Source: Arthrobacter jiangjiafuii (GTDB taxonomy: Bacteria; Actinomycetota; Actinomycetes; Actinomycetales; Micrococcaceae). Taken from it: DNA of 64,000 nucleotides. Below the pieces are notes generated by a model that was given only the letters and a program-made list of their open reading frames with translations, had not been told where the DNA came from and ran no database searches. Positions 18,648 to 53,766 of the stretch are shown here, one piece after another; within the stretch, counting starts at the first letter, position 1, and every line of letters starts with the position of its first letter. The stretch spans positions 2,976,001-3,040,000 of the forward strand of contig NZ_CP076022.1 of the NCBI RefSeq assembly GCF_018622995.1, in the 5' to 3' direction. The position numbers and the translations under genes are program-made.

Positions 18648-18793
18648 ACTGTCGAGATCACGCCCCTTGCACCGGCCCACTGTCGGGATCACGCCGCTTC
18701 CGGGCCGCGATATGGGCATCAGCCCGACACTGGGCGGCAGGTTTCGGCACGATCCCGACACTCGGCGGGGCTGACGGACACGATCCCGACATT
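18648..18793. repeat. Intergenic element with five spaced 17-nt motifs, two forward and three inverted
   Basis: Copies of A(G/C)TGTCGGGATNACGCC lie forward at 18648 and 18679 and inverted at 18715, 18746 and 18777. Start-to-start distances are 31, 36, 31 and 31 nt. The first four units span 115 nt, exactly like the elements at 41847 and 53652. The spacers between motifs are 14 nt except for the 19-nt centre. It sits in the 609-base gap between the tetR promoter and the YtxH-like gene; I see no coding potential here. Confidence 0.85.
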
Positions 18794-18835
18794 CACTAGG
18801 CGGAGAGGAGTTGGAAGGTACCGGTGGGGATCCCT

Positions 18836-18956
18836 AGTGCACATCGCGGGCCTTCGCGGATTCTTTAGTGCAGATCGCGGGCCCAAAAGGCCCCTTCACG
18901 AGCTTGAAAGCCCCTGATCTGCACGGTGGATTCCACAGGTGCCACTCATCTGCACT
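18836..18956. repeat. Intergenic element with four spaced AGTGCAGAT motifs
   Basis: Forward AGTGCACATCGCGGGCC (18836) and AGTGCAGATCGCGGGCC (18867), then inverted relatives at 18909 and 18940. Start-to-start distances are 31, 42 and 31 nt, total 121 nt. The architecture is the same as the neighbouring 115-nt element but the motif differs after the shared AGTG head. Confidence 0.8.
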
Positions 18957-18998
18957 AAGGATTGAGGCGGCAAGGGTTCCGGCTACCGCGGAGACCTC

Positions 18999-19022
18999 GG
19001 ACGGGGACGGAGACGGAGACGG
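18999..19022. repeat. Hexanucleotide simple repeat
   Basis: Four head-to-tail RGACGG hexamers (two GGACGG then two AGACGG) in the noncoding stretch 18957-19096. The rest of that stretch is GC-rich and shows no gene. Confidence 0.7.
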
Positions 19023-19096
19023 GAGGGCCCGGTCGAGGCGGCGTCGGAATCCGGCCGGAATCCAGACTGGCTCCGGACGGGAAAAGTCCAGGAACG

Positions 19097-19130
19097 CCGG
19101 AAGGGGCGTTCGACGGAACGCCCCTTCCGG
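19097..19130 (-). terminator. Strong hairpin downstream of the YtxH-like gene
   Basis: CCGGAAGGGGCGTTC and GAACGCCCCTTCCGG form a perfect 15-bp stem with a GACG loop, 38 bases after the stop at 19169. On the minus strand it is followed by CGTTCCTGGACTTTTCC, a weak U-tract. A likely terminator. Confidence 0.75.
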
Positions 19131-19168
19131 GAATACTGTGCTGTAGCCGGTGCGGCTACGTGTGGCTG

Positions 19169-19576
19169 TTACTTATTGGATTCGGGCTGGGCCTCGGCCG
19201 GGGACTGAATGTGCTGGCCGCCGGTAGTGAAGGAACCATTGCTCGTGGAGGTGGAAGCGCCGCTGCTGGAACCGCCGGTGGACGCCGCCGATGACCCGGG
19301 CATTCCCGTGGACCCGCCGGTGGTGGACCCGCCGGACCCCGAGGCGGGCTTGCCCGAATCGGAGGAGTGCGACACCTTGTCCTTGGCAGTGGAGGCAACC
19401 TCGGACACCTTCTCCTGCAGGCCCGGAGCCTTTTCCTTGGCCCACTCGGTGCCGTGGGAAACCGTCTCCTGGACCTTGGGGTCCTTCCACAGTTCCATCA
19501 GCTTTTCCCGGCCACCCTTGGATCCAACCAAGTAGCCAACGCCCATGCCGGCGAGAAATACGAACTTCTTAACCAT
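19169..19576 (-). CDS. Small YtxH-like membrane-anchored protein with Ser/Gly-rich tail
   Basis: 135 residues from the ATG at 19576 (GAGGAAAGCC upstream; the longer frame starts in a poor context). One N-terminal hydrophobic segment (VFLAGMGVGYLVGSKGG, residues 5-20) resembles YtxH proteins. A charged amphipathic helix follows (LWKDPKVQETVSHGTEWAKEKAPG, then SEVASTAKDKV). The last 60 residues are low-complexity Ser/Gly/Thr and probably disordered. Family function is unclear; stress-associated envelope proteins are the closest description. It is separated from its neighbours by over 150 bases on each side. Confidence 0.7.
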   Translation of the reverse strand: MVKKFVFLAGMGVGYLVGSKGGREKLMELWKDPKVQETVSHGTEWAKEKAPGLQEKVSEVASTAKDKVSHSSDSGKPASGSGGSTTGGSTGMPGSSAASTGGSSSGASTSTSNGSFTTGGQHIQSPAEAQPESNK

Positions 19577-19737
19577 GGCTTTCCTCATTCCTGCCCCCCG
19601 GTGAGGGGGCATAGCGAATACCGTTCGATACCGTTGAGATGCACACTACCGCCGGAAGCGGAAGAATAAACAGCAACCTTACTATGTCTGCGGGGGTGTT
19701 GTGATTCACTCCCGCTTTTTGGCCCTGGCGAGGTACG

Positions 19738-20157
19738 TCAGACCTCCAGCAGCCGCGAACGGATCAGGAAACGCTTGCCCTCAGGAGCTTCAACGGAGAA
19801 GCCGCTGCCCCTGCCGTCCACGACATCCACGGTGAGATGGGTGTGCTTCCAGTACTCGAATTGCTCGCGGGACATCCAGAAGTCCAGGGACTCCCCCGCT
19901 GTCAGTTCGAAGGTCCCCAGCAGTACGTCCGCTTCCGAGGTGATGAAATCCCCCGCCGGATAGCACATGGGCGAGGAGCCGTCGCAGCAGCCGCCGGACT
20001 GATGGAACATCAACGGGCCGTGGGTCTCACGCAGGCGCAGCAGCAGCTCCTGCGCCTGCGGCGTCAGCGCCACCCGGGAAAAGGCTTCCCCGGGCTGCGT
20101 GACGCCGGCATCCAGCAGGGACTCCCGGGCAGCACCCGGTTCCGATGGGGAATCCAT
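19738..20157 (-). CDS. DUF779 family protein
   Basis: A 139-residue protein of the DUF779 family. The core motif is FHQSGGCCDGSSPMCYPAGDF (residues about 50-70), where the Cys-Cys and third Cys could bind a metal or react with an aldehyde. The DVVDGRGSGFSVEAPEGKRFLIRSRL end is also typical. DUF779 genes regularly follow aldehyde and alcohol dehydrogenases, as here. The ATG at 20157 overlaps the adhP TGA by one base. A role as partner or quality factor in aldehyde oxidation is plausible but not established. Confidence 0.85.
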   Translation of the reverse strand: MDSPSEPGAARESLLDAGVTQPGEAFSRVALTPQAQELLLRLRETHGPLMFHQSGGCCDGSSPMCYPAGDFITSEADVLLGTFELTAGESLDFWMSREQFEYWKHTHLTVDVVDGRGSGFSVEAPEGKRFLIRSRLLEV

Positions 20158-21176
20158 CAGTACCCGATAACCACACGGCCGTCGATACGGCCCTGCTTGA
20201 GTTCGTCCAATACGTCGTTGATCTCTTCCAGGCTGCGGGTCGTGACGTTCGGATGGATCAAACCGCGGTCATAGAAGTCGATCGCTTCGGCCATATCCTG
20301 CCGGGTGCCGACGATCGACCCCCGGATGGTCAGCCCCTTGAGCACAATGTCGAAGATCGGCGCCGGGAAATTGCCCGGCGGCAGGCCGTTGAAGACGATG
20401 GTCCCGCCGCGTCGGACCATGCCGATGGCCTGCCCGAAAGCGTCGGGGTGCACTGCCGTGACGAGCACGGCGTGGGAGCCGCCGATCTTGGCCTGGATGG
20501 CCTCTACCGGATCCTCGTTGCGGGCGTTGACCAGAACCTCGGCGCCGTATTTCCTGGCCAGTTCCAGTTTTTCGTCCGCAATGTCCACTGCTGCGACCCG
20601 CAGGCCCATCGCCTTGGCGTACTGAACGGCAATGTGCCCCAGCCCGCCGATCCCGGAGATCACCACCCATTGGCCCGGCCGGGCCTCGCTCATCTTCAGG
20701 CCCTTGTAGACGGTGACGCCGGCGCAGAGGATCGGTGCAATGTCGGCCGGGTCGGCTCCCTCGGGGATGCGCGCGGCGAAGCGCGCATCCACCAGCATGT
20801 ACTGGCCGAAGGAGCCGTCCACGGAGTAACCGCCGTTCTGCTGCTGTTCGCACAGGGTTTCCCAGCCGGTGCGGCAGTACTCGCAGACCCCGCAGGCGGA
20901 GGCCAGCCAGGCATTGCCCACCATGTCCCCCACCTGCAGGTCGGTCACGCCGTCGCCCACTGCCACTATCTCGCCGACCCCCTCGTGCCCTGGGATGAAC
21001 GGCGGAGAGGGCTGCACCGGCCAGTCCCCCTCGGCCGCATGCAGGTCTGTGTGGCAGACCCCGGTGGCCACGAGCTTGACCAGCACCTCTCCCGGCCCGG
21101 GCTTCGGTATTTCCACCTCTTCCACACTGAGTTTTTCACCGAGCTTGTTGACTACTGCTGCCTGCATGCTTGTCAT
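20157..21176 (-). CDS. adhP: Zinc-dependent alcohol dehydrogenase, AdhP type
   Basis: A 339-residue medium-chain dehydrogenase that interconverts primary alcohols and aldehydes with NAD. Catalytic zinc ligands are in GVCHTDLHAAEGDW (Cys near 40) and GHEGVGEIV (His near 65) with a later Cys in ILCAGVTVYKGL. The structural zinc site is the four-cysteine CGVCEYCRTGWETLC near residue 95. The Rossmann motif is GIGGLGHIAVQYAKAMG near residue 175. It lies 96 bases after the aldehyde dehydrogenase stop, so the set can oxidise ethanol to acetate in two steps. Confidence 0.92.
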   Translation of the reverse strand: MTSMQAAVVNKLGEKLSVEEVEIPKPGPGEVLVKLVATGVCHTDLHAAEGDWPVQPSPPFIPGHEGVGEIVAVGDGVTDLQVGDMVGNAWLASACGVCEYCRTGWETLCEQQQNGGYSVDGSFGQYMLVDARFAARIPEGADPADIAPILCAGVTVYKGLKMSEARPGQWVVISGIGGLGHIAVQYAKAMGLRVAAVDIADEKLELARKYGAEVLVNARNEDPVEAIQAKIGGSHAVLVTAVHPDAFGQAIGMVRRGGTIVFNGLPPGNFPAPIFDIVLKGLTIRGSIVGTRQDMAEAIDFYDRGLIHPNVTTRSLEEINDVLDELKQGRIDGRVVIGY

Positions 21177-21272
21177 GGTGTTCTCGTTTCTGTGCGTGGG
21201 GGGTGGGGCGGGACTAGGCGGAACAGGTGCGTGGGCTCAGAAGTGGGATCACAAGCGGGCCCACCACGCGGT

Positions 21273-22796
21273 TTAGAAGAAGCCCTGCTTGTTCTCGGCG
21301 TAGCTGACCAGCAGGTTCTTGGTCTGCTGGTAGTGGTCCAGCATCATGGCGTGGTTTTCGCGTCCGATGCCGGAGGACTTGTAGCCGCCAAAGGCGGAGT
21401 GCGCCGGATAGGCGTGGTAGTTGTTCACCCAGACCCGGCCGGCCTGGATGTCCCGGCCGGCCCGGTAGGCGATGTTGCCGTTCCGGGACCAGACGCCGGC
21501 GCCGAGGCCGTAAAGGGTGTCGTTGGCCAGGGTCATGGCTTCGCCGTAGTCGGAGAACCGGGCCACGGAAACCACCGGACCGAAGATCTCCTCCTGGAAG
21601 ATGCGCATGTTGTTTGTGCCTTCAAAGACCGTGGGCTTCACGTAGAAGCCGCCGGCGAGATCGCCGTCGAGCATCAGCCGCTCGCCGCCGGTGAGGACCT
21701 TGGCGCCTTCCTGGTTCGCGATGTCCATGTAGGAGAGGATCTTCTCCAGCTGGTCGTTGGAGGCCTGCGCGCCCACCATGGTGTTGGTATCCAGGGGGTT
21801 GCCCTGGATGATCTGCGCGGTGCGGGCCAGCGCATCGGACATGAAGCTGTCGTAGAAGGAGTCCTGGACCAGCGCGCGCGAGGGGCAGGTGCAGACTTCG
21901 CCCTGGTTCAGCGCGAACATGTTGAAGCCTTCCAGCGCCTTGTCGTAGAACGCGTCGTTTTCCTGCGCGACGTCGGCGAAGAAGATGTTCGGGCTCTTTC
22001 CGCCCAGTTCCAGGCTGACCGGGATCAGGTTCTGCGAGGCGTACTGCATGATCAGGCGCCCGGTGGTGGTTTCCCCGGTGAAGGCGATCTTGCGGATGCG
22101 CGGCGAGGATGCCAGCGGCTTGCCGGCCTCCACACCGAAGCCGTTGACCACGTTCAGCACGCCCGCGGGCAGCAGGTCGCTGATCAGTTCCATCAGCACC
22201 ATGATCGAGGCCGGCGTCTGTTCGGCCGGCTTGAGGACGACGGCGTTGCCTGCGGCGAGCGCCGGCGCCAGCTTCCAGACGGCCATCAGGATGGGGAAGT
22301 TCCACGGAATGATCTGGCCCACGACGCCGAGCGGCTCATGGAAGTGATAGGCCGTGGTGTTGTCATCGAGCTGGGACAGTGTGCCTTCCTGCGCCCGGAT
22401 GGCCCCGGCGAAGTAGCGGAAGTGGTCAACGGCCAGCGGCAGGTCCGCGGCAAGGACCTCGCGGATGGGCTTGCCGTTGTCCCAGACCTCGGCCACCGCA
22501 AGCAGTTCGAGGTTCTCTTCGATCCGGTCGGCAATCCGATTCAGGATCAGCGCCCGCTCCGCGACGGAACTCTTGCCCCAGGAGGGCGCGGCCTTGTGGG
22601 CTGCATCCAGGGCCAGGTCGATGTCCTCGGAGGTGCCGCGGGCAACTTCGCAGAAAACCTGTCCGGTGACCGGGGAAACGTTCTCGAAGTAGCCGCCCTT
22701 GACCGGAGGCACCCACTCTCCGCCGATCCAGTTCTCGTACCGCGGCTTGAAGGAATATTTGGAACCCTCGGTGCCGGGCTGTGCGTAAACGGTCAT
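21273..22796 (-). CDS. NAD-dependent aldehyde dehydrogenase (acetaldehyde type)
   Basis: A 507-residue cytoplasmic aldehyde dehydrogenase. I start it at the ATG at 22796, which has AAGGAG six bases upstream and begins [20 protein letters not shown] as in ExaC/AldA-type enzymes; a 13-residue upstream extension has no comparable site. The glutamate is in [13 protein letters not shown] (about 265) and the nucleophile Cys in [14 protein letters not shown] (about 303). The C-terminal [16 protein letters not shown] is diagnostic of the acetaldehyde/chloroacetaldehyde group. It heads the operon with adhP and the DUF779 gene. Confidence 0.9.
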
Positions 22797-22851
22797 GTTG
22801 CGCTCCTTGAAGATGACGACGTCGGTGTCTGACACTCACAAGCTACGGAAG

Positions 22852-22876
22852 GCAACGTTGCACCAAGGTTGCATCC
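22852..22876 (-). promoter_or_regulatory. Possible activator site upstream of the aldehyde dehydrogenase operon
   Basis: The palindrome GCAACGTTGC (22852-22861) overlaps two direct GTTGCAYC copies at 22857 and 22868, spaced 11 nt, one helical turn. They lie 55-80 bases upstream of the aldehyde dehydrogenase ATG. The GAF-domain regulator encoded at 24630-25979 is a natural candidate to bind here; that is inference. Confidence 0.4.
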
Positions 22877-22977
22877 GGGAAACGGGCTGGTGAGGCCGCG
22901 CAGGGGCGCACGTGCCAAAGAGCCGGTGCCAGGATTATGGTTGCCTCAGAGAATCACTTTTGCTTGGAGGAACCCCC

Positions 22978-24633
22978 ATGGATCAGCCCCTGAACGCCGG
23001 TACGGCCGGCACCGGCCGCGCCAGCCGCTACGTGCGGTACCGGTGGTGGGGCCTGGTGGCCATCAGCCTCGGGGTTGCCATGATCATCATGGACGCCACG
23101 ATCGTGTCCGTCGCCATTCCCTCGATAGTGGATGACCTGGGCATTTCCAGCACCGAAATCCAGTGGGTGCAGGAGATCTATACCCTGCTCTTTGCCGCGC
23201 TGCTGCTTACCTGGGGCCGGATCGCGGACCGGGTGGGCCGGCGGCGGATCATGCTCACCGGCGTCGTGATCTTTGTGGTTGCCAGCGTCCTGTGCGCCTT
23301 TGCCGGCAGCGGAGGGCTGCTGATCGCCGGCCGCGCGCTGCAGGGCCTGGGTGGTTCGATGATCCTGCCCACCACGCTGGCGCTGCTGAACGCGAACTTC
23401 CAGGGCCGCGAGCGCGGCATCGCGTTTGCCATCTGGGGGTCCACGATTGGCGGCATGGCCGCCGTGGGGCCGCTGCTTGGCGGCTGGCTCACGGAAAATG
23501 CCAGCTGGCGGTGGGCCTTCGGCATCAACGTTCCCATCGGAGTGCTGATCGCGGCCGGGCTGCTGTTGTTCGTGGCGGAGTCGTCCGAGCCGCGGACCGG
23601 TCCCCGGCAGGGTGTGGACATCGCTGGGGCGCTGCTCTCGATCCTGGGCTTCGGCGCCCTGGTGTTTGGCCTGATCGAGGGCCGCAGCTACGGCTGGTGG
23701 AATGCCACCGACGACGCCCTCTTCAGCGTGGGCAGCCTCTCCCCCGTCCCGCTGGCCTTTGCGCTTGCCGTGCTGGCCCTGACCGGATTTGTGCTGCTGG
23801 AACGCAAACGGACCGATGCCGGCAAGGGCGTGATCCTGGACCTGTCCCTGTTCCGGATCCCGTCCTTCGCGAACGGAAACGTCACCGCCCTGATTGTCAG
23901 CTTCGGCGAGTTCGGGCTGATTCTCTCGCTGCCGCTGTGGTTCCAGAATGTGCTGGGGTACTCGGCGTTCCAGGCCGGCCTGGCCTTGGTGCCGCTGGCG
24001 GCCGGGTCCTTCCTGGCCAGCGGTGCCGTTGCGGGGCTCTCCCGCCGGTTCTCCCCCATCCTGGTGGTCCGTCTCGGGTTGTGCCTGGAGATCCTGGCCA
24101 TCGCCGCGCTGGCCCTGCTGATCCGCCCGGACAGCACGGCCTGGCTGACCTCCCCCATCCTGCTGGTCTACGGCATGGGTGTTGGACTGGCCACCGCCCA
24201 GCTGACCTCGGTGGTCCTGGCCGAGGTCCCGGTGGCGCGCAGCGGACAGGCCTCGGCCACGCAGAGCACTGCCCGCCAGACGGGTTCCGCCTTGGGCATC
24301 GCGGTCCTGGGCACCGCGTTCTTCACGACGCTGAAGGAAGGAACGGCCTCCCGGCTCTCCGACGATGTTGCCGCCAATCCGCTGCTGGGGCCGCTGGTGG
24401 ATTCGGTCAATGCCAGTTCCGGCGGGAGCATCGCCGCGCTCGGCGCCGACCCGCAGACCGCCTATATCGCCGACGCAGCCCGCGCCGCGATGACGGACGG
24501 TGCGTCCCTGGCCGCCTGGATTGCCGCCGGCGCCCTGTTGATCGGGCTGCTCACCAGCCTGCGGATCCGCCCTGTTTCCGGCGCCAAACCCGGCGGGGAC
24601 GCCGGCGCCGGTGAACGTCCGGAGAGCGCCTAG
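22978..24633 (+). CDS. MFS drug exporter, DHA2 (14-TM, EmrB/QacA) family
   Basis: A 551-residue membrane protein. I start at the ATG at 22978 behind TTGGAGGAA; the frame is open further upstream without a ribosome site. Motif A is LLTWGRIADRVGRRRIMLTG (about residues 75-94), and motif C-like GRALQGLGGSMILPTTLALLN follows near residue 117. Helix 1 carries MIIMDATIVSVAIPSI, the DHA2 D1 motif. It is a proton-driven exporter of drugs or metabolites. Its stop overlaps that of the convergent GAF regulator. Divergent from the aldehyde dehydrogenase operon by about 180 bases, so it may share control. Confidence 0.9.
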   Translation: MDQPLNAGTAGTGRASRYVRYRWWGLVAISLGVAMIIMDATIVSVAIPSIVDDLGISSTEIQWVQEIYTLLFAALLLTWGRIADRVGRRRIMLTGVVIFVVASVLCAFAGSGGLLIAGRALQGLGGSMILPTTLALLNANFQGRERGIAFAIWGSTIGGMAAVGPLLGGWLTENASWRWAFGINVPIGVLIAAGLLLFVAESSEPRTGPRQGVDIAGALLSILGFGALVFGLIEGRSYGWWNATDDALFSVGSLSPVPLAFALAVLALTGFVLLERKRTDAGKGVILDLSLFRIPSFANGNVTALIVSFGEFGLILSLPLWFQNVLGYSAFQAGLALVPLAAGSFLASGAVAGLSRRFSPILVVRLGLCLEILAIAALALLIRPDSTAWLTSPILLVYGMGVGLATAQLTSVVLAEVPVARSGQASATQSTARQTGSALGIAVLGTAFFTTLKEGTASRLSDDVAANPLLGPLVDSVNASSGGSIAALGADPQTAYIADAARAAMTDGASLAAWIAAGALLIGLLTSLRIRPVSGAKPGGDAGAGERPESA

Positions 24634-25979: not shown

Positions 25980-26079
25980 TCGTCCGACCTATCCGCACTG
26001 ATAAGGAGTCGTTGTCCCGCGCGAAGCGCGTTGCACGACACCCTACATGCCGGAACCGTTCCCCTCCAGCGTTGCGCCG

Positions 26080-30534: not shown

Positions 30535-30608
30535 GGTTTCTCCTTGGGTGCGGTGCGGTCTTGGATGCAGTGGGGGCTTGGGTTCAGCGGGCTTTCGGTT
30601 CAGTGGGG

Positions 30609-40463: not shown

Positions 40464-40516
40464 TGATAGTCCTTCGTCTCGGGGAAAACCTCGTGCGGAA
40501 TAACGCACAGTTTCCT

Positions 40517-40684: not shown

Positions 40685-40693
40685 GTCGCTCAC

Positions 40694-41846: not shown

Positions 41847-41961
41847 AGTGTGGGGAAGACGCCGCTTTCCTTCGCCCAGTGTCGGGATGACGCCGTTATC
41901 AGCGCCGGGAACTGGCAATATCTCGACAATGGATGCGGGCAACGGGCGTGATCCCAACACT
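41847..41961. repeat. Intergenic 115-nt element with four spaced 17-nt motifs
   Basis: Forward AGTGTGGGGAAGACGCC (41847) and AGTGTCGGGATGACGCC (41878), inverted relatives at 41914 and 41945. Start-to-start spacing 31, 36, 31 nt, identical to the elements at 18648 and 53652. Lies between convergent rarD and the CAP-domain gene. The stretch before it (41726-41846) contains three TGGTCGGGC words and no recognisable gene. Confidence 0.85.
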
Positions 41962-41988
41962 CGGCGCTGGCATGAACAGACCACAACA

Positions 41989-42023
41989 AAGCCCCGCTCT
42001 CCCGGATTGGGAGGGCGGGGCTT
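41989..42023. terminator. Intrinsic terminator, mainly of the CAP-domain gene
   Basis: AAGCCCCGCTCTCCC and GGGAGGGCGGGGCTT form a 15-bp stem with one wobble pair and a 5-nt loop. On the minus strand it is followed by TGTTGTGG, on the plus strand by CGTTGG. It lies 43 bases after the stop at 42066 and could serve both directions. Confidence 0.85.
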
Positions 42024-42065
42024 CGTTGGTACAGGTCCTCCGGTACAGGAGGGCTTACCGGCTCT

Positions 42066-43634
42066 CTAGCGGGCCGAGATGGTGCGCTGGCGCTGGACGG
42101 CGATCAACGCCACAGCGCCGATCAGGGCCATGAGCGCACCGATGCCGCCGATGGCGATCTGAGCCGGGTTGAGACCGGTAACTGCCAGTTCGGCACCGGA
42201 TCCTGCCTGCACCGACTGCGCCGCCAGGACGGTAACCGCCGGCTCCACAGTGAAGGACGCCCAGCCGGTCAGCCCGCCGTCGGTAAACAGCGCGACTTTG
42301 TGCTCACCGGCAGCAAGCACCGGCGGAACCGAAAGCTTGAGTTCGCCCTTGGCATCCGCGCTCACCGTTCCGAGGTTTACCCCCGCGGACGGAATGACGG
42401 CGTCGACGGCGGAACCCGGCTTGGCCCCGGAGATGCGCAACTGGCTGCCGGCAGCTGTGGCCATGACGGTTCCTCGTGCCGCACTGGTGAGCAGCGACTC
42501 GTCCCCGAGCACCACCTGATCCAGCGATGAGAGGACGGATACCGGGTTTTGCAGCCCCCGGCTGATCCCTCGTGAAGCAGCAGGCTTGCTGGCTGCAGCC
42601 TGGGCAGCGGCTTCGGCTTCCACGGCTTCGGCTTCCGCGGCCTGCGCTGCTGCGGCTTCAACTGCGGCGGTCTCGGCTGCCGCAGCTTCAGCTGCTGCCT
42701 GCTCCGCGGCAAGCTGCTCGGCGACAGCAGCATCCGCAGCCACCTTCAATTCGGCCTGCCGTGCTGCTTCGTCTTCGGTTGCCTTGACGGCGGCAGCTTC
42801 GTTGGCAGCTTTCAGTGCCGCCTCCTGGGCTGCCTGATCCTTTGCTGCCTTGTCCTGCTCCGTTTCGTTCTGGACCGGCTCGGGGGCGGCAGGTTCCTCG
42901 GCTGCGGGGGCGGCAACGTTTGCGGCGTCGGCAGCAGCCTTATCCACAGCGGCCTTCTCGGCCGCAGCCTTGTCCGCAGCGGCCTTCTCGGCCGCAGCCT
43001 TGTCCGCAGCAGCCTTCTCGGCCGCAGCCTTGTCAGCGGCAGCCTTGTCAGCGATGGCCTTGTCAGCAGCAGCCTTATCGGCAGCAGCCTTCTGCTCGGC
43101 AGCAGCCTTCTCAGCAGCAACACGCTGTGCTTCAAGGGTGGCGGCCTGTGCCGCTGCGTCAGCCGGAGCCTTCGACCAGCCGAACTGCGCCGTGGCGAGG
43201 AAGGTGCCGCGGTTCGGTCCCGCGGTCAGCTCGACGGCGCCGATACCGACATCGGTGGCTCCTGTAATGAGCATATTGGCCCGGTGAGGAGCCGAATTAA
43301 CCCAGGACTGGAACGCCGAGTCGGCACTCATGTTCCAGACGATGTTCTCGTGGAACGCGTAGGAGCCCGGGCTGTGCTGGAACTCGCCGGCGCCGGCGGT
43401 GTTGGCGATGTCCGCCGACTGCTGGGTCCAGCTTTGCGAGTCGGCGCTCATCTGGGGATCCAGCCGCAGCGGCGCCAGGCCATGCTGCTGCCGGTAGTCA
43501 TTGATCAGCACGTACAGCCGGTTGGCGAACTGTTCGTCGGCGGCGCTTGCTGCAGCGGAGGGAACCGCTATCACCGCCGTCATAAGCGTGATGGCCAGGG
43601 CAACGAAGACCCCCACCAGTTTTTTTACCCGCAT
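42066..43634 (-). CDS. Secreted CAP-domain (SCP/PR1, YkwD-like) protein with alanine-rich repeat stalk and LAxTG sorting signal
   Basis: 522 residues from the ATG at 43634 (AAAGGAT upstream). A signal peptide ([25 protein letters not shown]) ends near residue 31. The CAP domain (about 35-165) has [37 protein letters not shown] and [24 protein letters not shown]. Residues about 175-365 are an Ala/Lys/Glu-rich stalk built from [10 protein letters not shown]-type repeats. A beta-rich region of about 110 residues follows. The end is LAVTG, a hydrophobic helix and QRQRTISAR, a sortase signal of the LAxTG class used by class E sortases. The protein should be wall-anchored; CAP function is unknown. 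Confidence 0.85.
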
Positions 43635-43951
43635 GTTTAATCCTTTTGCCTCGAGACCCAGTGCGCAGACACACCGAAGCCAGACCATGCGCAGCTCCCC
43701 CACAGAACCGCGGTGCCCAACGAGAAAGTCACGGGGCAACGAGGAGAACTTACCTCAGGACACGTAAATGAACAACAGCCCCTCTAATAACATCAGTAAC
43801 ATAAATCACAAACGAGACACGCGGGCGCGGCCGCATTTTCCACAACCGCACCCGCCCCCGGACGTCCTCGCGCCCCCTGGGCAGGAACTTCGGGACCCCC
43901 GGGAGCCCGCCCTTCGCCTGATCGACAACTACTCAACCAATTTCTCGACGG
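43635..43951. other. 317-base gap upstream of the CAP-domain gene
   Basis: Holds the CAP gene leader and promoter region and the terminator-like hairpin at 43821-43855. On the minus strand TTGTGA about 17 nt before ATTAGA (near 43785) is a weak promoter candidate. I looked for a c-di-AMP (ydaO) riboswitch, which often precedes wall-protein genes in actinobacteria, and could not match its conserved cores. Confidence 0.5.
43821..43855 (-). terminator. Possible terminator of the APC permease operon
   Basis: On the minus strand GCGGGTGCGG and CCGCGCCCGC pair over 10 bp (one wobble) around a 15-nt loop, followed by GTGTCTCGTTTGTGATTT. It begins 97 bases after the permease stop. Confidence 0.45.
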
Positions 43952-45493: not shown

Positions 45494-46386
45494 TCGGTTA
45501 CCTCGCTCTGGCTGGGTGCGGTGCCGGTAGTACTGCCGCGGAAGTTCCGGGGCACCACCACCATGGGGACGGGCAGGCTGCGCAGGATCTTGCTGGCGGT
45601 GGCGCCCAGGAAGAGCCGGTTGTTCCCGGCGAGCCGGCTGGAGCCGATGAGCATGACTTCGCCGTCGTCGAACTCCAGCTCATCGATGGCGTTTTCGATC
45701 GTCCGGCCCTGTACGACGACGGCGGTGACCGGACAGCGTCCGGCCGCCAGCTGCTGGGCGCGGGCCAGGCGGTCGTCCGCGTGCATGCGGGCCTCCGTGA
45801 CCGCATTCTCATCCCGTGAGGGTGCGTCCAGCGCGACCAGCGACACCAGCCGCAGCGGCAGTCCGCTGCGCGCGGCGGTATCCACGGCCGCTTCCAGCAC
45901 GTCGTTGGCGCCGCGCCGGTTGCCCACCGCGCAGGTGATCCGCGTCAGCGGGGCGGTGCGGCTGTAGCCGTGCGGAGCCAGGGCCACGGGCACCGGCGCG
46001 GCGTGCAGCAGCGCGTTGGCAACGCTGCCGATGGTGAAGCGCTTGAAAATCCCGTTGCTGGCCGCCCCGACCACAATCAGGCCGGCACCCAGCTCTTCGG
46101 CTGCATCGATCAGCCCATGCGCATCGGAGTCGGCGTTCCGGATGTGCCCGGCCGCAGGCACGCTGCCGGGCACCAGATCCAGGCCCTCCCGGAGCCAGGT
46201 TTCCAGCTGTTCTTCGAGCAGGTCGCGGTAACCGCTTTCGGGCGGATACACAACGGTGTAGGGCGAATGCTCCGGGTCAACCATGACCAGGTCCAGCTCG
46301 GCGCCCTGGGTGCGGGCAATGACCGCAGCCAGGTTCACCGCATCCCGGCCCCGTTCAGTGGCGGTGTACCCGACGACGTAGCGCAT
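45490..46386 (-). CDS. Tandem universal stress protein (two UspA domains)
   Basis: 298 residues made of two UspA-like halves, about 1-140 and 145-285. Each has the nucleotide-loop pattern near its end: GAASNGIFKRFTIGSVANALL and GSSRLAGNNRLFLGATASKILR, followed by PVPVALAP and PVPMVVVP. Such tandem proteins usually bind ATP. It sits between putrescine oxidase (12 bases upstream) and the APC permease (overlapping), an arrangement suggesting it regulates or senses transport. Usp domains fused to or beside APC transporters are known; the direct role here is inference. Confidence 0.85.
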   Translation of the reverse strand: MRYVVGYTATERGRDAVNLAAVIARTQGAELDLVMVDPEHSPYTVVYPPESGYRDLLEEQLETWLREGLDLVPGSVPAAGHIRNADSDAHGLIDAAEELGAGLIVVGAASNGIFKRFTIGSVANALLHAAPVPVALAPHGYSRTAPLTRITCAVGNRRGANDVLEAAVDTAARSGLPLRLVSLVALDAPSRDENAVTEARMHADDRLARAQQLAAGRCPVTAVVVQGRTIENAIDELEFDDGEVMLIGSSRLAGNNRLFLGATASKILRSLPVPMVVVPRNFRGSTTGTAPSQSEVTE

Positions 46387-46398
46387 GGGGATCTCCCT

Positions 46399-47826: not shown

Positions 47827-47867
47827 AGTGTCCTTTCCTTGCGGCCGGGAAGGCCGCCACCAGTCAT

Positions 47868-47888
47868 TAAATGAATGGTGTTCATTTA
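47868..47888. promoter_or_regulatory. TetR-type operator between puo and its regulator
   Basis: A perfect inverted repeat, TAAATGAA, 5-nt spacer TGGTG, TTCATTTA, in an AT-rich patch of an otherwise GC-rich 167-base divergent region. On the minus strand a TTTAAT -10-like hexamer lies within it. The adjacent TetR protein is the expected ligand. Confidence 0.7.
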
Positions 47889-47993
47889 TTAGAAGGAACT
47901 GTAGCGTGGGTCACTCCCGCGTGGAAGCGGTCGGCGGAAAATGACGGCGGTGTGACACCATGAAGGCCGGTACCGCGGAAGGAAACTCGGCAG

Positions 47994-48674
47994 ATGAGCA
48001 GCGACGAACCGCGCCGCAGGGGCGCCGGACGGCCGGTGAAGCGTGTGCTGTCGCAGGCACGCATTGTGGCCGCGGCCCTGGAAGTCATCCAGGCCGGCGG
48101 CTACGGCGCGCTGACCATGTCTGCCCTGGCCCGCCGGCTGGAGGTGGCGCCGTCGGCGCTCTACAACCATGTGGAGTCCAAACAGGAGGTGCTGCGCTGG
48201 CTGCAGGACTTCGTGATGTCCTCCGTGGACACCTCGTGTTTCGCTGACCTGCCGTGGGACCAGGCGTTGCGGGCGTGGGCGCGCTCCTACCGCGACGTAT
48301 TTGCCCGGCACACACCGCTGATTCCCGTGATTGCCGTACTGCAGGTGAGCGGGGCGCCGCGCACCCTGGCCATGTATGAAGCGGTCACGCAGGGCCTGCA
48401 GCGGGCGGGCTGGCCGACGCCGCAGATTGTGCCCGCCATCGTGGCGCTGGAGTCCTTCATTTACGGCTCGGCGTACGACGCCGTGGCCCCGCAGGACATT
48501 TTCGACACCGGTGCCCTGGCCGCCGACAGCCCGCGCTTCACGGCGGCCGTGGAACTGCAGACCGGGCGTGCGGACGGCCGGGCCGCCGACGCCGCCTTCG
48601 AGGCCGGGCTGTCGGCACTGGTCACCGGTTTGGCCGGCGGGGCCGGACTCCCGTTGGAATCCGGCCCCGCCTGA
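47994..48674 (+). CDS. TetR family regulator of the putrescine oxidase operon
   Basis: 226 residues, ATG at 47994 with GGAAGGAAA upstream. The helix-turn-helix is LTMSALARRLEVAPSALYNHVESKQEVLRWLQDF (about residues 38-72), preceded by a basic arm GRPVKRVLSQARI. The C-terminal ligand domain (YGSAYDAVAPQDIFD, then FEAGLSALVTGLAGGAG) is of the TetR_C type seen in amine-responsive regulators. Divergent from puo with the palindrome between them, so repression of puo-usp-permease until putrescine or an aldehyde appears is likely. Convergent with gabT. Confidence 0.85.
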   Translation: MSSDEPRRRGAGRPVKRVLSQARIVAAALEVIQAGGYGALTMSALARRLEVAPSALYNHVESKQEVLRWLQDFVMSSVDTSCFADLPWDQALRAWARSYRDVFARHTPLIPVIAVLQVSGAPRTLAMYEAVTQGLQRAGWPTPQIVPAIVALESFIYGSAYDAVAPQDIFDTGALAADSPRFTAAVELQTGRADGRAADAAFEAGLSALVTGLAGGAGLPLESGPA

Positions 48675-48726
48675 GCCCGCTAACGGGTCTCGCTCAAAAG
48701 CCCCGTCAGGGTCGCCCGAAGCTCCG

Positions 48727-50082
48727 TCAGAGCTGCGCGCGGACGGCCGCTTCCAGCACGTCCAGGGCGTCGGAGAGCAGTTCGTCGCTGATGACCAGCG
48801 GCGGCAGCAGCCGCACCACGTTGCCGTAGGTGCCGCAGGTCAGGATGATGACTCCCTCGGCCAGGCAGGCCGCGGCGACGGCCTTGGTGATGTCGGCATC
48901 CGGGGTTTTGGTTCCGGGCTTGACGAATTCCAGCGCCAGCATGGCGCCGCGGCCGCGGACCTCGCCGATCACGCCGGTGTCCTCGGCCAGGCGCTGCAGG
49001 CGCGGAACGGTGGTTTCCTCGATCCGGCGGGCACGGCCGGACAGGTCCTGGGTTTCCATGGTGGAAATCGCGGCCAGCGCTGCGGCACAGGCCACCGGGT
49101 TGCCGCCGTAGGTCCCGCCCAGGCCGCCCGGGTGAACGGCGTCGAGCAGTTCGGCGCGGCCGGTGACGGCGGAGAGCGGCAGGCCGCCGGCAATGCCCTT
49201 GGCCATGGTCAGGATGTCCGGAACCACGCCCTCGTGCTGCACGGCGAACCATTCGCCGGTGCGGCAGAAACCGGACTGGACCTCGTCGGCGATGAAGACA
49301 ATGCCCTTGGCCTTGGCCCACTCGGCCAGCCGCGGCAGGAAGCCCTCGGCCGGGACAATGAAGCCGCCCTCGCCCTGGATCGGTTCGATCAGGATGGCGG
49401 CAGTCTGGTCGGCGCCGATCTGCTTTTCGATGGCCAGGATGACGCGCTCGGCCGCTTCGGTGCCGGTGATCTCCGGGTTTTCCTCACGGTAGGGGTAGCT
49501 CATCGGCATCCGGTAGATCTCGGAGGCAAACGGGCCGAAGCCGGTCTTGTACGGCATCGCCTTGGCGGTCAGGCCCATGGTGAGGTTGGTGCGGCCGTGG
49601 TAGGCGTGGTCAAAGGCGACGACGGCGTCGCGGCCGGTGGCGGAGCGGGCAATCTTGATCGCGTTTTCCACGGCCTCGGCGCCGGAGTTGAAGAGCACGG
49701 TGCGCTTTTCGTGGTCGCCGGGGGTGACCTCGTGGAGCTTTTCGGCCAGCGCAATGTAGCCCTCATACGGGGTGACCATGAAGCAGGTGTGGGTGAAGTG
49801 CTCCACCTGGTTCTTGACCGCCTCGACGACGGCGGGGTCCGAGGCGCCCACTGACGTCACGGCAATGCCGGCGCCCAGGTCGATGAAGGAGTTGCCGTCG
49901 ACGTCGAGCACAATGCCGCCGTCGGCGTCTGAGACGTAGACCGGAACCGAGGAGGCCACGCCCTTGGCCACCACGGCCGCCCGGCGGGTGTTCAGCGCAA
50001 CGGACTTCGGGCCCGGAAATACGCCGTTGATGTTGCGCTTTTGTTCCAGCCGGTAGGACGGCGAAACGGTCTGGGTGCTCAT
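48727..50082 (-). CDS. gabT: 4-aminobutyrate aminotransferase
   Basis: A 451-residue class III PLP aminotransferase transferring the amino group of GABA to 2-oxoglutarate, giving succinate semialdehyde and glutamate. FNSGAEAVENAIKIARSATG and FDHAYHGRTNLTMGLT are the cofactor-phosphate and ring-stacking blocks. ILIEPIQGEGG and FIADEVQSGFCRTG carry the Glu and the PLP-pyridine Asp. The Schiff-base lysine is in LTMAKGIAGGLPL near residue 295. It lies 103 bases after the aldehyde dehydrogenase gene on the same strand. No succinate-semialdehyde dehydrogenase (gabD) is in the window. Confidence 0.92.
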   Translation of the reverse strand: MSTQTVSPSYRLEQKRNINGVFPGPKSVALNTRRAAVVAKGVASSVPVYVSDADGGIVLDVDGNSFIDLGAGIAVTSVGASDPAVVEAVKNQVEHFTHTCFMVTPYEGYIALAEKLHEVTPGDHEKRTVLFNSGAEAVENAIKIARSATGRDAVVAFDHAYHGRTNLTMGLTAKAMPYKTGFGPFASEIYRMPMSYPYREENPEITGTEAAERVILAIEKQIGADQTAAILIEPIQGEGGFIVPAEGFLPRLAEWAKAKGIVFIADEVQSGFCRTGEWFAVQHEGVVPDILTMAKGIAGGLPLSAVTGRAELLDAVHPGGLGGTYGGNPVACAAALAAISTMETQDLSGRARRIEETTVPRLQRLAEDTGVIGEVRGRGAMLALEFVKPGTKTPDADITKAVAAACLAEGVIILTCGTYGNVVRLLPPLVISDELLSDALDVLEAAVRAQL

Positions 50083-50185
50083 AGGGGTGTGCCTTTCGAA
50101 CGGTGCTGCGTGTGCTGCGGTGGGGTGTTGGGGCGTGCCGGTGCCGGCGCGGGTGCCGGCGCTGTGCTGGCTGGTGAGTGGTTGC

Positions 50186-51616
50186 TCAGGCGTCCAGGGC
50201 CGTCATGACGTGCTTGATCCGCGTGTAGTCCTCCACGCCGTACATGGAGAGGTCCTTGCCGTAGCCGGAGCTCTTGAAGCCGCCGTGGGGCATCTCGGCC
50301 GTGAGCATGATGTGCGTGTTGATCCAGACGGCGCCGAAGTCCAGGTCCCGGGCCAGGCGCATGGCGCGGCCGTGGTTGGAGGTCCAGACGCTGGACGCCA
50401 GGGCGTATTCGACGTCGTTGGCCATTTCCACGGCTTCTGCCTCGGTGGTGAAGGTCTGGACCGTGATGACCGGGCCGAAGGTTTCCTTCTGCACCACGTC
50501 GTCGTCCTGGCGGGCTCCGGTGATCACAGTGGGCTCGAAGAAGAAGCCCTTGGCGCCGGCCCGCTTGCCGCCGGTTGCAATGGTGCAGTGCTCGGGCAGC
50601 GAGTCGATCACGGAGTTGACCGCGTTGAAGTGGTTGATGTTGTTCAGCGGACCGAAGTAGTTGGCTTCGTCGTCCTCGTGGCCGGTTTCCAGTGTCTTGG
50701 TGTGGGCCACCAGGGCTGCGACGAAGTCATCCTGCGCGGATTCTTCGACCAGCACGCGGGTGATGGCCGTGCAGTCCTGGCCGGCGTTGAAGAAGGAGAA
50801 CTCGGCCACGGCTTCGGCGGTTTTCTGCAGATCAGCATCGGCGAAGACCACGGCGGGCGCCTTGCCGCCGAGCTCCAGGTGCGCGCGCTTCAGCGTCTTG
50901 GCGGCACCGGAGGCCACGGCGATGCCGGCGCGGACGGAGCCGGTGATCGAGACCAGGCCCGGGGTGGGGTGCTCCACCATCGTGGCGCCGGTTTCGCCGG
51001 TGCCCAGGACGATGTTCAGGACGCCGGCCGGGAAGATTTCCCCGGCGAGCCGGGCCAGGACCAGGGTGGATTCGGGCGTGGTGTCGGAGGGCTTGAGCAC
51101 CACGGTATTGCCGGCGGCCAGCGCGGGGCCGATCTTCCAGATGGCCATCAGCAGCGGGTAGTTCCAGGGGGCAACCTGCGCGACGACGCCGATCGGCTCG
51201 CGGCGGATGAAGGAGGTGTGTCCCTCCATGTATTCCCCGGCGGACTTGCCTTCCAGCAGTCGGGCGGCACCGGCGAAGAAGCGGAGCTGGTCGGCACCGA
51301 CGGCCACTTCTTCCGCTGCGATGACGGAGCGGACCTGCCCGGTGTTGCGGTGCTGGGCTTCGACCAGTTCGTCGGAGTTGGCTTCCAGGGCATCTGCGAG
51401 CTTGAGCAGCATCAGCTGCCGCTCGGACGGCGTGCTCCGCTTCCAGGTCTTGAAGGCGGCCGCTGCTGCGTCCATGGCGGCGTCGACGTCGGCCTGCACC
51501 GACACCGGCGAGGTGGCCACCACCTCGCCGTTGACCGGGTTGATGATTTCCAGCTGGTCGGTTCCCCGTGCCGGGACAAACTCTCCGTTGATAAAGTTCT
51601 GCAGCGTCTGGGCCAT
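50186..51616 (-). CDS. patD: 4-aminobutyraldehyde dehydrogenase
   Basis: A 476-residue NAD-dependent aldehyde dehydrogenase. I start at the ATG at 51616 (MAQTLQNFINGEFVPARG), the usual family N-terminus; the frame continues upstream without support. The general base is in HLELGGKAPAVVFADADL and the nucleophile in FNAGQDCTAITRVLVEES near residue 280. The PWNYPLLMAIWKIGPALAAGN and MPHGGFKSSGYGKDLSMYGVEDYT segments match gamma-aminobutyraldehyde/betaine-aldehyde enzymes. It would turn the puo product into GABA for GabT. Divergent from the PucR regulator. Confidence 0.88.
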   Translation of the reverse strand: MAQTLQNFINGEFVPARGTDQLEIINPVNGEVVATSPVSVQADVDAAMDAAAAAFKTWKRSTPSERQLMLLKLADALEANSDELVEAQHRNTGQVRSVIAAEEVAVGADQLRFFAGAARLLEGKSAGEYMEGHTSFIRREPIGVVAQVAPWNYPLLMAIWKIGPALAAGNTVVLKPSDTTPESTLVLARLAGEIFPAGVLNIVLGTGETGATMVEHPTPGLVSITGSVRAGIAVASGAAKTLKRAHLELGGKAPAVVFADADLQKTAEAVAEFSFFNAGQDCTAITRVLVEESAQDDFVAALVAHTKTLETGHEDDEANYFGPLNNINHFNAVNSVIDSLPEHCTIATGGKRAGAKGFFFEPTVITGARQDDDVVQKETFGPVITVQTFTTEAEAVEMANDVEYALASSVWTSNHGRAMRLARDLDFGAVWINTHIMLTAEMPHGGFKSSGYGKDLSMYGVEDYTRIKHVMTALDA

Positions 51617-51760
51617 GGCTCGCACTGTCCTTTCAGGAGGAGGATGCCCGGACGCGTGCCCGGGGCTGTACTCCAAACTAAGGGCTGAAGCGCACGTCAC
51701 ATAGGGGCGACCGGACAAGACTTAATGTGTCCAACTGTGCAGCCGACCAAAACACGGCCC

Positions 51761-51766
51761 TATAGT
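51761..51766 (+). promoter_or_regulatory. -10 element of the pucR-type gene, leaderless start
   Basis: TATAGT ends six bases before the ATG at 51773, so transcription should begin at the start codon itself. No ribosome-binding sequence precedes the ATG. No clear -35 is seen. Confidence 0.6.
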
Positions 51767-51772
51767 TGCCCC

Positions 51773-53197
51773 ATGCCGATTTACCTTTCCGACCTGCTGG
51801 ACGCTCCGGCACTGGATCTTCGTCCCTGCGGGACGGCGCCGGTCACCCGGACTCCCCTGCAGTGGGTCGCCGTCACCGAGCTCGAGGATCCGTTTCCGTT
51901 CCTCGGCGGCGGCGAGGTGGTGCTGACCACCGGGCTGCGGCAGCGCACCGGCGCCGCCCAGCGCGCCTTCGTGGACAGCGCGCACCGGGCCGGGGCACTC
52001 GCCGTCGGCTTCGGTACCGGGCTGAGCCACGCGAAGGTGCCTGCAGCGCTGATCGAGGCGGCCAATGCGCACCACCTTCCGGTGTTCGAGGTCCCCTACG
52101 ACACCCCGTTCGTGGCGCTGGGCAAGATGGTGGCGGACGCGCTCTCCGCGGACCACGTCACCCAGCTGCGTGAGCTGCTCGCCGCGCACCAGTCCCTGGC
52201 CGGGGCACTGCTGGGCGGCAAGGGGCTCTCCGGACTGCTGCAGGAACTGGCCTCGCTGCTGGGCAACCATGTGGCGCTGTACCAGTACGGCTCGCGGGTA
52301 CTCGCGACCGGGTCCGGGCCCCAGGGCGCCCGGCAGCACCGCGTTCCCATTGCCACCGGCCTCCGCGACCGCTGCACCCTGGCCGTCACCGAGCCCTTCC
52401 AGCGCCCGGATATTGTGGCGTACGCGCAGAGCCTGGTGAGCGTTGAACTGAGCAACCAGGCCCGGCGCCGGGCCCGGGACCGCGCGGTGACCGGGCAGCT
52501 GCTGACCGATGTGGTGGCGGGACGGCTGGCCGGCAGCGACGCGTCGCTGCGGCTGCAGGCGGCCGGGATTTCCGCGGCCCGCCGGCAGCTGACCTTCCTG
52601 GTCGAGGTGGCCTCCGGGCAGGTGCGCTCGCTGCCCACTCTGCCGCTGCCGCCAGCGTTCGACGGCGCCGTCACCGCCGTTGTCGACGGCCGGCTGGCGG
52701 TGGTGGTGGCCGACGGCGACGGCGCCGCGCTGGCTCCGGTCCTCAGCACCTACCTCTACGGCACCGGGCTGACCGCGAAGGTCGGCTACGGCGGGTCCTA
52801 TGCCGAACCCGCCGGTCTGCGCTGGAGCTACTTCGAGGCCAAGGAATCCCTGCAGCGCGGGCAGGCCGTCAACGAGCCCGACCGGCTGAGCCTGACCTCG
52901 CTGCTGATGTCCGGCACGGATGTTCCGCTGGCCGATCTGGCCGCCGAGGCACTGGATCCCCTGACCGGATTCGATGAGCTGCACGACGCAAACCTGATGG
53001 AGACCCTGGAGCAGTATCTGGGGCTGAACGGGTCGGTGGCCGCCGTGGCCGACGCCCTGGGGCTGCACCGGAACACCGTCCGCTACCGGCTGGGCCAGAT
53101 CACCGAGCTCACCGGCTACGATCCGGCCGTCACCGCGGACCGGGTGCACCTGTTCCTGGCGCTGCATGTGCGCCGGCTGGGTGTCGGCCGGGCCTGA
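51773..53197 (+). CDS. PucR family transcriptional regulator
   Basis: 474 residues from the ATG at 51773, the natural PucR N-terminus (IYLSDLLDAPALDLRPCG); an in-frame start 48 bases upstream precedes the promoter and is rejected. The N-terminal PucR domain covers about 5-125 (FLGGGEVVLTTGLRQR, VGFGTGLSHAKVPAALIEAAN). A central CdaR/GGDEF-like region follows. The C-terminal helix-turn-helix is TLEQYLGLNGSVAAVADALGLHRNTVRYRLGQI near residue 425. Divergent from the patD-gabT genes by 156 bases, it is the probable GABA/aminobutyraldehyde-responsive regulator of them. Confidence 0.87.
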   Translation: MPIYLSDLLDAPALDLRPCGTAPVTRTPLQWVAVTELEDPFPFLGGGEVVLTTGLRQRTGAAQRAFVDSAHRAGALAVGFGTGLSHAKVPAALIEAANAHHLPVFEVPYDTPFVALGKMVADALSADHVTQLRELLAAHQSLAGALLGGKGLSGLLQELASLLGNHVALYQYGSRVLATGSGPQGARQHRVPIATGLRDRCTLAVTEPFQRPDIVAYAQSLVSVELSNQARRRARDRAVTGQLLTDVVAGRLAGSDASLRLQAAGISAARRQLTFLVEVASGQVRSLPTLPLPPAFDGAVTAVVDGRLAVVVADGDGAALAPVLSTYLYGTGLTAKVGYGGSYAEPAGLRWSYFEAKESLQRGQAVNEPDRLSLTSLLMSGTDVPLADLAAEALDPLTGFDELHDANLMETLEQYLGLNGSVAAVADALGLHRNTVRYRLGQITELTGYDPAVTADRVHLFLALHVRRLGVGRA

Positions 53198-53284
53198 GGC
53201 CTGTCTCGCGTTGGTGCAGGGCTTGGCTGGCGTGCCTGCAATCCTGGCAACCTGGCCCGCCACGTTCTGGCGGCTTGCCCCGAG

Positions 53285-53621
53285 AGTGCAGCTCTGGCGG
53301 TTCCCTCCGCGCGAGGGAGCGCGAGAGTGCAGCTCTGGCGGTTCCCTCCGCGCGAGGGAGCGCGAGAGTGCAGCTCTGGCGGTTCCCTCCGCGCGAGGGA
53401 GCGCGAGAGTGCAGCTCTGGCGGTTTCCCCCGGGCGAGGTAGCACGAGAGTGCAGCTCTGGTGGTTTCCCCCGGGCGAGGTAGCACGAGAGTGCACCTCT
53501 GGTGGTTTCCCCCGGGCGAGGTAGCCCGAGAGTGCAGCTCTGGCGGCTTTCGTCGCCATTTGGCCGCCAGACCTGCACTCTCGGCGAGCGAGTCCCGGTC
53601 GAATGCCGCCATAAGTGCGCT
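53285..53621. repeat. Tandem 41-nt repeat array with two terminal inverted motif copies
   Basis: AGTGCAGCTCTGGCGG recurs forward at 53285, 53326, 53367, 53408, 53449, 53490 and 53531, each exactly 41 nt apart (two copies differ at one or two bases). Inverted copies follow at 53564 (one mismatch) and 53606 (degenerate). The 25-nt filler has two versions: the first three units carry a CCCTC/GAGGG hairpin, the next three a CCCCCGGGCGAGG variant. No long open frame in it is plausible as protein. It fills most of the 665-base gap after the PucR gene. Confidence 0.9.
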
Positions 53622-53651
53622 CTCGGGGTCTCCTTGCGCTGGTCGGCGCCG

Positions 53652-53766
53652 AGTGTCGGGATAACGCCCCTTGCTCCCGCCGAGTGTCGGGATAACGCCG
53701 GAATTCGGCGCTGGAAACGGCATAGGCCCGACACTGGATGGATCCAAAGGGCACGACGTCAACACT
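53652..53766. repeat. Intergenic 115-nt element with four spaced 17-nt motifs
   Basis: AGTGTCGGGATAACGCC is identical at 53652 and 53683, with inverted relatives at 53719 and 53750. Start-to-start spacing 31, 36, 31 nt. It follows the 41-nt array after 30 bases. The remaining 96 bases to the next gene hold its promoter. Confidence 0.88.

Follow-up and report, generated by a model that had tools for sequence, protein, structure and literature searches.

The genome of Arthrobacter jiangjiafuii (a single contig of 3,593,579 bp, hereafter the source genome) contains dispersed extragenic elements built from a short unit repeated in both orientations, three of which lie in the stretch analysed here, bases 2976001-3040000 (64,000 nucleotides, hereafter the window). 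These three elements belong to a larger dispersed family, referred to as family A, which stands beside two sister families, B and C. Their units are spaced in whole turns of the DNA helix, their dispersal is specific to lineages within the genus, and several loci are empty in relatives. Arrays of this kind also adjoin, above control level, genes for proteins combining an AbiEi-like part with a DUF559 nuclease domain, and the motif follows the type of protein. We propose that the elements are non-autonomous arrays of sites recognised by a cognate AbiEi-like/DUF559 nuclease that is encoded elsewhere, a reading to which we assign a probability of about 0.6.

Anatomy of the repeat families

An earlier note on this DNA had described two forward and two inverted copies of a 17-nt unit, spaced 31, 36 and 31 nt over exactly 115 nt, at 18648, 41847 and 53652, and the three layouts are present at these positions. 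The span of 115 nt is correct for the second element (W2, 41847..41961; forward units 41847-41863 and 41878-41894, inverted units 41914-41930 and 41945-41961) and for the third (W3, 53652..53766; forward units 53652-53668 and 53683-53699, inverted units 53719-53735 and 53750-53766). It falls short for the first (W1, 18648..18793; forward units 18648-18664 and 18679-18695, inverted units 18715-18731, 18746-18762 and 18777-18793), which extends over 146 nt because of a fifth, inverted unit at 18777-18793, so that 115 nt is no fixed length. W1 is adjoined by a family C element (18836..18956; forward units 18836-18852 and 18867-18883, inverted units 18909-18925 and 18940-18956), in both arms of which the units are 31 nt apart. 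W3 abuts a family B array (53282..53624) of nine units spaced by 41-42 nt, comprising seven forward units at a 41-nt pitch from 53282 to 53546 and two inverted ones (53564-53582 and 53606-53624). The 17-nt motif has 21 matches in the window at up to three mismatches versus 9.7 expected, and none of 100 shuffles had as many. When the window was compared with itself without any motif, a lag of 31 nt was found at six places, all within the three A elements or a sister element, and most lags from 18 to 69 nt at none.

Family A was characterised over 464 kb of the source genome, consisting of the window and 20 further stretches, 16 picked for motif matches and four not. It comprises 23 elements there, and thus at least 23 in the genome. 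Among same-strand units, the 31-nt spacing dominates with 52 pairs, followed by 32 nt with three, 30 and 41 nt with two each, and 33, 36, 37 and 48 nt with one each. Forward-to-inverted neighbours within 17-60 nt are exactly 36 nt apart in 23 cases out of 23, and the 19-nt loop at this hinge is variable in sequence although the length of the hinge is constant. Each arm has one to four units with an AGTG-like head, and the two arms often differ in the central bases of the units, for example at position 10 (C/T versus A). A genome scan for regular spacing, suggested in the earlier note as a check, returned 27 pairs of the two-unit 31-nt pattern in this genome and none for the reversed control. 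The recurrence of the hinge length, of the unit positions and of arm-specific variants in the 23 elements supports their descent from one ancestor, as the note had supposed from three.

Helical phasing of the units

Distances between neighbouring units were measured for all families from one base of the unit, after collapsing near-duplicates (n=138, the counts being non-independent owing to shared ancestry). Neighbours in the same orientation are separated by 30-32 nt (19 cases), 40-43 nt (40) or 51-53 nt (7), with seven others between 19 and 58 nt; forward-to-inverted neighbours by 32 nt (31) or 42 nt (10), with three others; and inverted-to-forward neighbours by 39-40 nt (10) or 49-51 nt (7), with seven others. 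The same-orientation classes have means of about 30.9, 41.4 and 51.9 nt, in steps of about 10.5 nt, and, whatever the orientation, the centres of neighbouring units tend to be about 31, 41-42 or 52 bp from each other, equivalent to three, four and five turns of B-DNA. All three kinds of orientation fit one lattice with a period of 10.3-10.4 bp and a near-zero phase (R=0.84), using one fitted offset of 0.6 nt or, equally, -4.6 nt; the same-strand data alone fix the period weakly (R of 0.787 at 10.45 and 0.778 at 11). Spacings of 31 and 41 nt mix inside single arrays, one element may carry the first in one arm and the second in the other, and intermediate lengths are nearly absent. Such whole-turn classes, nearly devoid of intermediates, are what is predicted for copies of a protein standing on one face of B-DNA. 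The preference of the earlier note for protein sites lined up along one face of the DNA over an RNA hairpin is therefore supported, by the predominance of whole-turn distances in every orientation as well as by the coexistence of unequal arms.

Nuclease genes adjoining the arrays

The source genome has two genes coding for an AbiEi-like part joined to DUF559; both are outside the window, within which no copy of them was found. The first, referred to as B-type (1084063-1084995), has neighbours matching biotin carboxylase and Maf, and runs, in a region rich in B units, into a B array of 17 units. The second, A-type, was found by a profile search of eight genomes of the clade (G000:C1:2939217-2940146) and its product is 44% identical to the B-type protein. 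Upstream of it, a five-unit A array (2938959-2939103) ends 113 nt before the gene start, and a diverged A element begins 28 nt after the stop codon with exact 31/36 spacing, having two forward units 31 nt apart (4-5 mismatches) and an inverted unit 36 nt further (2 mismatches). The A-type gene of a related genome, G297, has units spaced 30/36/31 upstream and 31/36 downstream. The C-terminal end of the G297 gene (G297:C1:879571-880440) diverges in frame from that of the source genome. Among the eight clade genomes, A-type genes were found in three (the source genome, G297 and G298), whereas A pairs are limited to two of these three (the source genome and G297), the remaining five genomes having no A pair. 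A third type of gene is present in G146, G249 and G080; in the first two it stands between inverted repeats with a sequence of their own.

DUF559 matches are present in 28 of the 29 genomes of the genus. From 50 places listed, 34 DUF559 loci were read, three of which were dropped as different proteins, and the others were assigned by eye to groups I (13 genes), II (7) and III (11). Judged by eye, 12 of the 13 group I genes are followed, at about 0-140 nt past the stop codon, by units or inverted repeats of a related word, an adjacency also seen by eye outside the array-rich clade. A motif-free test was then applied to the 250 nt downstream of each gene, accepting direct repeats of 17/18 or better at lags of 24-60 nt and inverted repeats of 16/18 or better. 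Repeats were found at 10/13 genes of group I (Fisher p versus controls 8e-12), 5/7 of group II (p=3e-6), 2/11 of group III (p=0.07) and 11/20 genes from other genera, hand-picked among the matches listed (p=2e-10), versus 29/758 control genes, which were heuristic open frames from 29 stretches. For direct repeats at lags of 29-32, 40-42 and 51-53 nt, the corresponding figures are 9/13, 4/7, 0/11, 4/20 and 4/758. Several of the other-genus genes below the threshold have inverted repeats by eye. Downstream of group II genes, which occupy another locus, stand repeats of about 30 nt that differ in sequence.

In a tree of 18 proteins, four motif labels need three changes, the minimum, which none of 200 label shuffles reached; the labels were given by eye to 17 of the proteins, one being unlabelled, and label C lumps several variants and corresponds to a weakly supported clade. 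The type of motif follows the type of protein, and we hold a cognate relation between nuclease and arrays to be quite probable, with more assurance than the full reading of which it is a part.

The partner protein is about 310 residues long, with an AbiEi-like N-terminal half and a C-terminal DUF559/MTES_1575 domain. PADLOC models of AbiEi matched 5/5 proteins (best E from 7e-7 to 3.5e-11), Pfam AbiEi_4 was below cut-off in 2/8 and absent in 6, PF04480 (DUF559) was at or near cut-off, and NCBIfam gave no match for 6/6 proteins. Residues invariant in 16 proteins include D240, E251, H256, H257, D266, R269 and D270, and these conserved acidic and HH residues identify the partner, at the level of sequence, as a DUF559/MTES_1575 Vsr-like nuclease with putative catalysis. 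The best match to a solved structure, by profile search, was 3hrl, an “endonuclease-like protein” (E=0.0038), and MTES_1575 is described as a Vsr-type nuclease fold in an excerpt of PMC3710099. According to excerpts of PMC7319586, Streptococcus AbiEi recognises a pair of inverted 23-bp repeats separated by 3 bp, and Rv2827c recognises repeat pairs separated by 13 bp; these inverted-pair sites, with gaps differing by one helical turn (10 bp), have a design like that of the present arrays.

Distribution among genomes and empty sites

The A pair pattern was found in 42 pairs in the source genome and 20 in G297, the remaining 27 genus genomes having none. A narrower version of it, searched earlier in 295 genomes of the bacterial family, was retrieved only from the source genome (27 pairs) and from G078, whose three matches are all in a different-looking tandem array. 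This other 31-nt tandem array (TCGAGCC...GTCGAGATCAGGCC, at G078:C9) belongs to a different genus and lies at a contig end. B units number 67 in the source genome, 59 in G213, 25 in G249 and at most five in any other of the 29 genus genomes, 12 of which have B units in any number. C pairs occur in six of the 295 genomes of the bacterial family, all of the same genus (48 pairs in G146 and 4-8 in the five others), and 289 have none. Reversed-pattern controls gave zero in these A, B and C searches. Among 84,980 species, only Arthrobacter gandavensis and Arthrobacter sp. APC 3897 yielded an exact C pair, in a search that may omit the genome of the window. The repeats mark one part of the genus, in which several species have amplified their own subfamily. 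A phage or plasmid origin was rejected, exact A- and C-type pairs having no match in viral contigs and blastn of one A and one C locus having none in phages and plasmids.

Comparison of equivalent places between species revealed empty sites. The elements at 84 kb and 2923 kb are lacking in G213, W2 is lacking at the same place in four relatives (G213, G146, G297 and G080), and a C element of G249 corresponds to an empty site in G293. Other places carry different families according to the species: the W3 locus has B and A in the source genome, B plus C-like units in G213, C in G146 and A in G297, and a locus at 1970 kb has A in the source genome and G297 and C in G249, G213, G080 and G146.

Some further observations concern these insertion loci. 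A direct repeat of about 15 nt, including the stop codon of one conserved gene, surrounds inserts that differ between species, namely C elements or, in the source genome and G213, other open frames, and G293 has a single copy of it; this site looks like a hot spot of integration or duplication. At the equivalent of the 2923 kb locus in G297, an IS30-like transposase gene (identified by eye, on the reverse strand) is located inside an A-type array; insertion sequences also sit inside repetitive extragenic palindromes (REPs) elsewhere. The end of this IS30-like element shares a short word with the C units, which was judged a coincidence. The genes flanking the dispersed A elements were read by eye as housekeeping and were discarded as candidate partners.

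Proposed mechanism and alternative explanations

In the mechanism that we propose, each unit would be one asymmetric site of about 17-23 bp bound by the AbiEi-like part, as the association with the genes and the precedent of AbiEi suggest. Sites three, four or five turns apart would align copies of the protein on one face of the DNA, with half-arrays facing each other. The nuclease domain may break or nick the DNA at the arrays, and repair or recombination may copy these to new sites and duplicate whole units. The A-type gene enclosed by A arrays and the B-type gene with B arrays behind it would be the partners in place, the other arrays being seeded in trans between genes, most often at the ends of convergent ones. 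Mobilisation of the arrays by the nuclease is the more tentative part of this scheme, and we rate it somewhat short of an even chance.

Several points weigh against this proposal. G298 has an A-type gene yet no strict A pair, only diverged A-like units nearby, and C-pattern pairs are present in the source genome, G213 and G249 (six each, some perhaps B-like) without a gene classed as C. The classical AbiEi-DUF559 genes of group III have no significant link with repeats, some homologues from other genera have no repeat, and the group I gene of G295 has no array. The maf locus, where the majority of the genus's group I genes are found, may be no more than a preferred place for repeats. The flanks of the empty sites are too diverged for placing the ends of the elements or a target duplication, and the AlphaFold model, from a single A. 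gandavensis sequence, has a pLDDT of 30. Binding of the arrays, breakage or nicking of the DNA by the nuclease domain and movement of arrays by way of such a break are inferred. Two pairing signals, given below with the RNA hairpins, add to these points.

The best of the alternatives, which we nonetheless regard as unlikely, is that the elements are chromosome-architecture or insulator sites of a general host protein, placed between convergent genes, the nuclease genes being mere neighbours. When loci were merged across 33 stretches of the source genome, using heuristic gene calls, 17 of the 37 with callable flanks were between convergent genes, 14 between tandem ones, three between divergent ones and three within heuristically called open frames (the frame at 2939 kb is on the strand opposite to the A-type gene, whose start it overlaps), compared with 40 convergent, 136 tandem and 67 divergent among background gaps of at least 60 nt. 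This position suits such sites, helical phasing would fit any DNA-binding protein, and several species carry arrays in the same intergenic regions. A conserved host protein is, however, ill-suited to lineages that each amplify a different motif, nor does it account for repeats at nuclease genes in excess of controls, for gene-specific motifs in other genera, or for an A gene that is enclosed by A units in each of two species.

The nuclease could also be a defence or toxin-antitoxin-like effector, restrained by arrays acting as operator or decoy sites and not as mobile DNA. The similarity of the protein to AbiEi and the arrays adjoining its genes would be in keeping with this, the more so as AbiEi proteins autoregulate through binding paired inverted repeats (excerpts of PMC7319586). 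The arrays are mostly downstream of the genes and not at promoters (for other genera, this covers downstream flanks only), and they exist in dozens of dispersed copies, which makes this role improbable.

A smaller chance still is given to RNA hairpins, in which forward and inverted units would pair in the transcript to act as terminators or as stabilisers of mRNA 3' ends. Many whole elements fold into long in-register imperfect hairpins and the elements are frequently downstream of genes, but single units of the window (three A, one B and one C) fold no better than shuffles in 5/5 cases (z from -0.28 to 1.03). The absence of covariation between arms stated in the earlier note holds overall in families A and C. 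In 26 A elements, unit pairing is 0.774 within elements versus 0.792 between them (1906/2000 shuffles at least as high), and in 29 C elements with a hinge of 42, a set including a few doubtful matches, it is 0.767 versus 0.779 (2649/3000 shuffles at least as high), with pairing avoided at position 12 (0.17 versus 0.41). A first pooled C set (n=42) had displayed excess pairing (0/2000 shuffles as high for the unit and 3/2000 for the spacer); that set combined B-like units with two classes of hinge, and the overall excess disappears with hinge 42 alone. Two results speak for hairpins and against our proposal: in 15 B elements, the 14-nt spacer has some excess pairing within elements (13/2000 shuffles as high), the unit itself being without excess (405/2000), and the single C columns -4, -3, 13 and 14 are above shuffles (z from 2.4 to 5.8). 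Unequal arm spacing and spacing steps of 10-11 nt are further arguments against hairpins, as are separate terminator-like hairpins, recognised by eye, beside W2 and on both sides of the arrays at 1970 kb. The one near W2 (41987..42029) is outside the element, which lies between a stop codon and this conserved hairpin, and it is kept, by eye, in relatives without the element; a terminator function of the element itself was rejected on account of it. Rfam had no match in the window at gathering score.

Spread by a REP-associated tyrosine transposase (RAYT, a Y1 enzyme), as for REPs and bacterial interspersed mosaic elements (BIMEs), is very improbable, since extragenic dispersal, alternating orientation, regular spacing, a non-complementary middle and an array by the cognate gene do recall REP traits (excerpts of PMC2817692) but Y1_Tnp (PF01797) was found in 0/29 genus genomes by a search positive in 5/14 control genomes, whereby a RAYT partner was rejected, and single units fold no better than shuffled sequences.

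Comparison with known systems

The repeats are dispersed and extragenic, occur in both orientations and have an associated gene, and the closest likeness is with REP/BIME-RAYT systems, in which the gene has repeats on either side and further copies of these are scattered elsewhere (excerpts of PMC2817692). Common to both are lineage specificity, mosaics of both orientations, fixed spacing, a non-complementary middle, and copies beside the gene of a cognate DNA-cutting enzyme (whose cutting is putative here) with one motif per enzyme. The partner differs, being AbiEi-like with a DUF559/Vsr-like nuclease instead of a Y1 HUH transposase. REP units are individual palindromes with a GTAG/GTGG head, whereas the present units form no hairpins and have an AGTG-like head; the spacing is here quantised in helical turns, and the A and C arms are without overall covariation. 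Lacking a Y1 transposase and palindromic units, the elements depart from REP/RAYT systems in two defining features.

Operators of AbiE type IV toxin-antitoxin systems share with the arrays a DNA-binding protein related by sequence and sites arranged as inverted pairs. The known sites are in the gene's own promoter, whereas the present ones lie for the most part behind the gene and in scattered copies, and the presumed protein has a nuclease domain in addition; the AbiE operon layout was not seen as far as the loci were read, the toxin gene not having been searched for. Miniature inverted-repeat transposable elements are likewise short, non-autonomous, dispersed elements with inverted repeats, but here no transposase with matching ends and no clear target duplication were seen, and the elements contain internal multi-unit phased arrays. 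Iteron arrays and the ends of Tn7-type transposons have several phased copies of one protein site; the present arrays, which we take to be neither at an origin nor at a transposon end, differ from them in occurring in dozens of dispersed copies.

The literature searched, mostly at the level of listings, contained no description of these repeats or of DUF559/AbiEi proteins with repeats, and term look-ups in PMC12306157 (one table line) and PMC3733652 (no occurrence) added nothing on them. This agrees with the earlier note, whose author knew of no described element of this design, and the Rfam result gives no match to a catalogued RNA family, which the note had named as a refutation. The outcome suggests that the repeat family and its partnership with a nuclease were previously undescribed, the pairing being so far statistical. 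The logic of the system would be that of REP/RAYT, with parts unrelated to theirs. That it represents a new class of selfish repeat system, in which an AbiEi-DUF559 gene seeds non-autonomous arrays chromosome-wide with a site of its own for each paralogue, is possible at slightly less than even odds.

Other features of the window

Two other repeated regions of the window were noticed. At 42600-43140, 15-nt repeats within a reverse-strand open frame (42066-43739) probably code for an alanine-rich repeat stretch, and at 60593-62127 two adjacent gene stretches with about 72% nucleotide identity are apparently a tandem duplicate.

Conclusions

If the proposed reading is true, a nuclease family of unknown function (AbiEi-like with DUF559/MTES_1575) would gain its cognate DNA sites, and repeat/enzyme partnerships of the REP kind would have arisen with an unrelated enzyme. 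The whole-turn spacing predicts a cooperative assembly of the protein on the arrays. As many of these genes adjoin their presumed site, a large set of protein-site pairs would be readable from genomes. Sampling of 139 genomes from the bacterial family recovered the gene family in 110, belonging to 28 of 32 genera and with up to 11 matches per genome, so that “REP systems” without a RAYT may, on the same condition, be common in actinobacteria.

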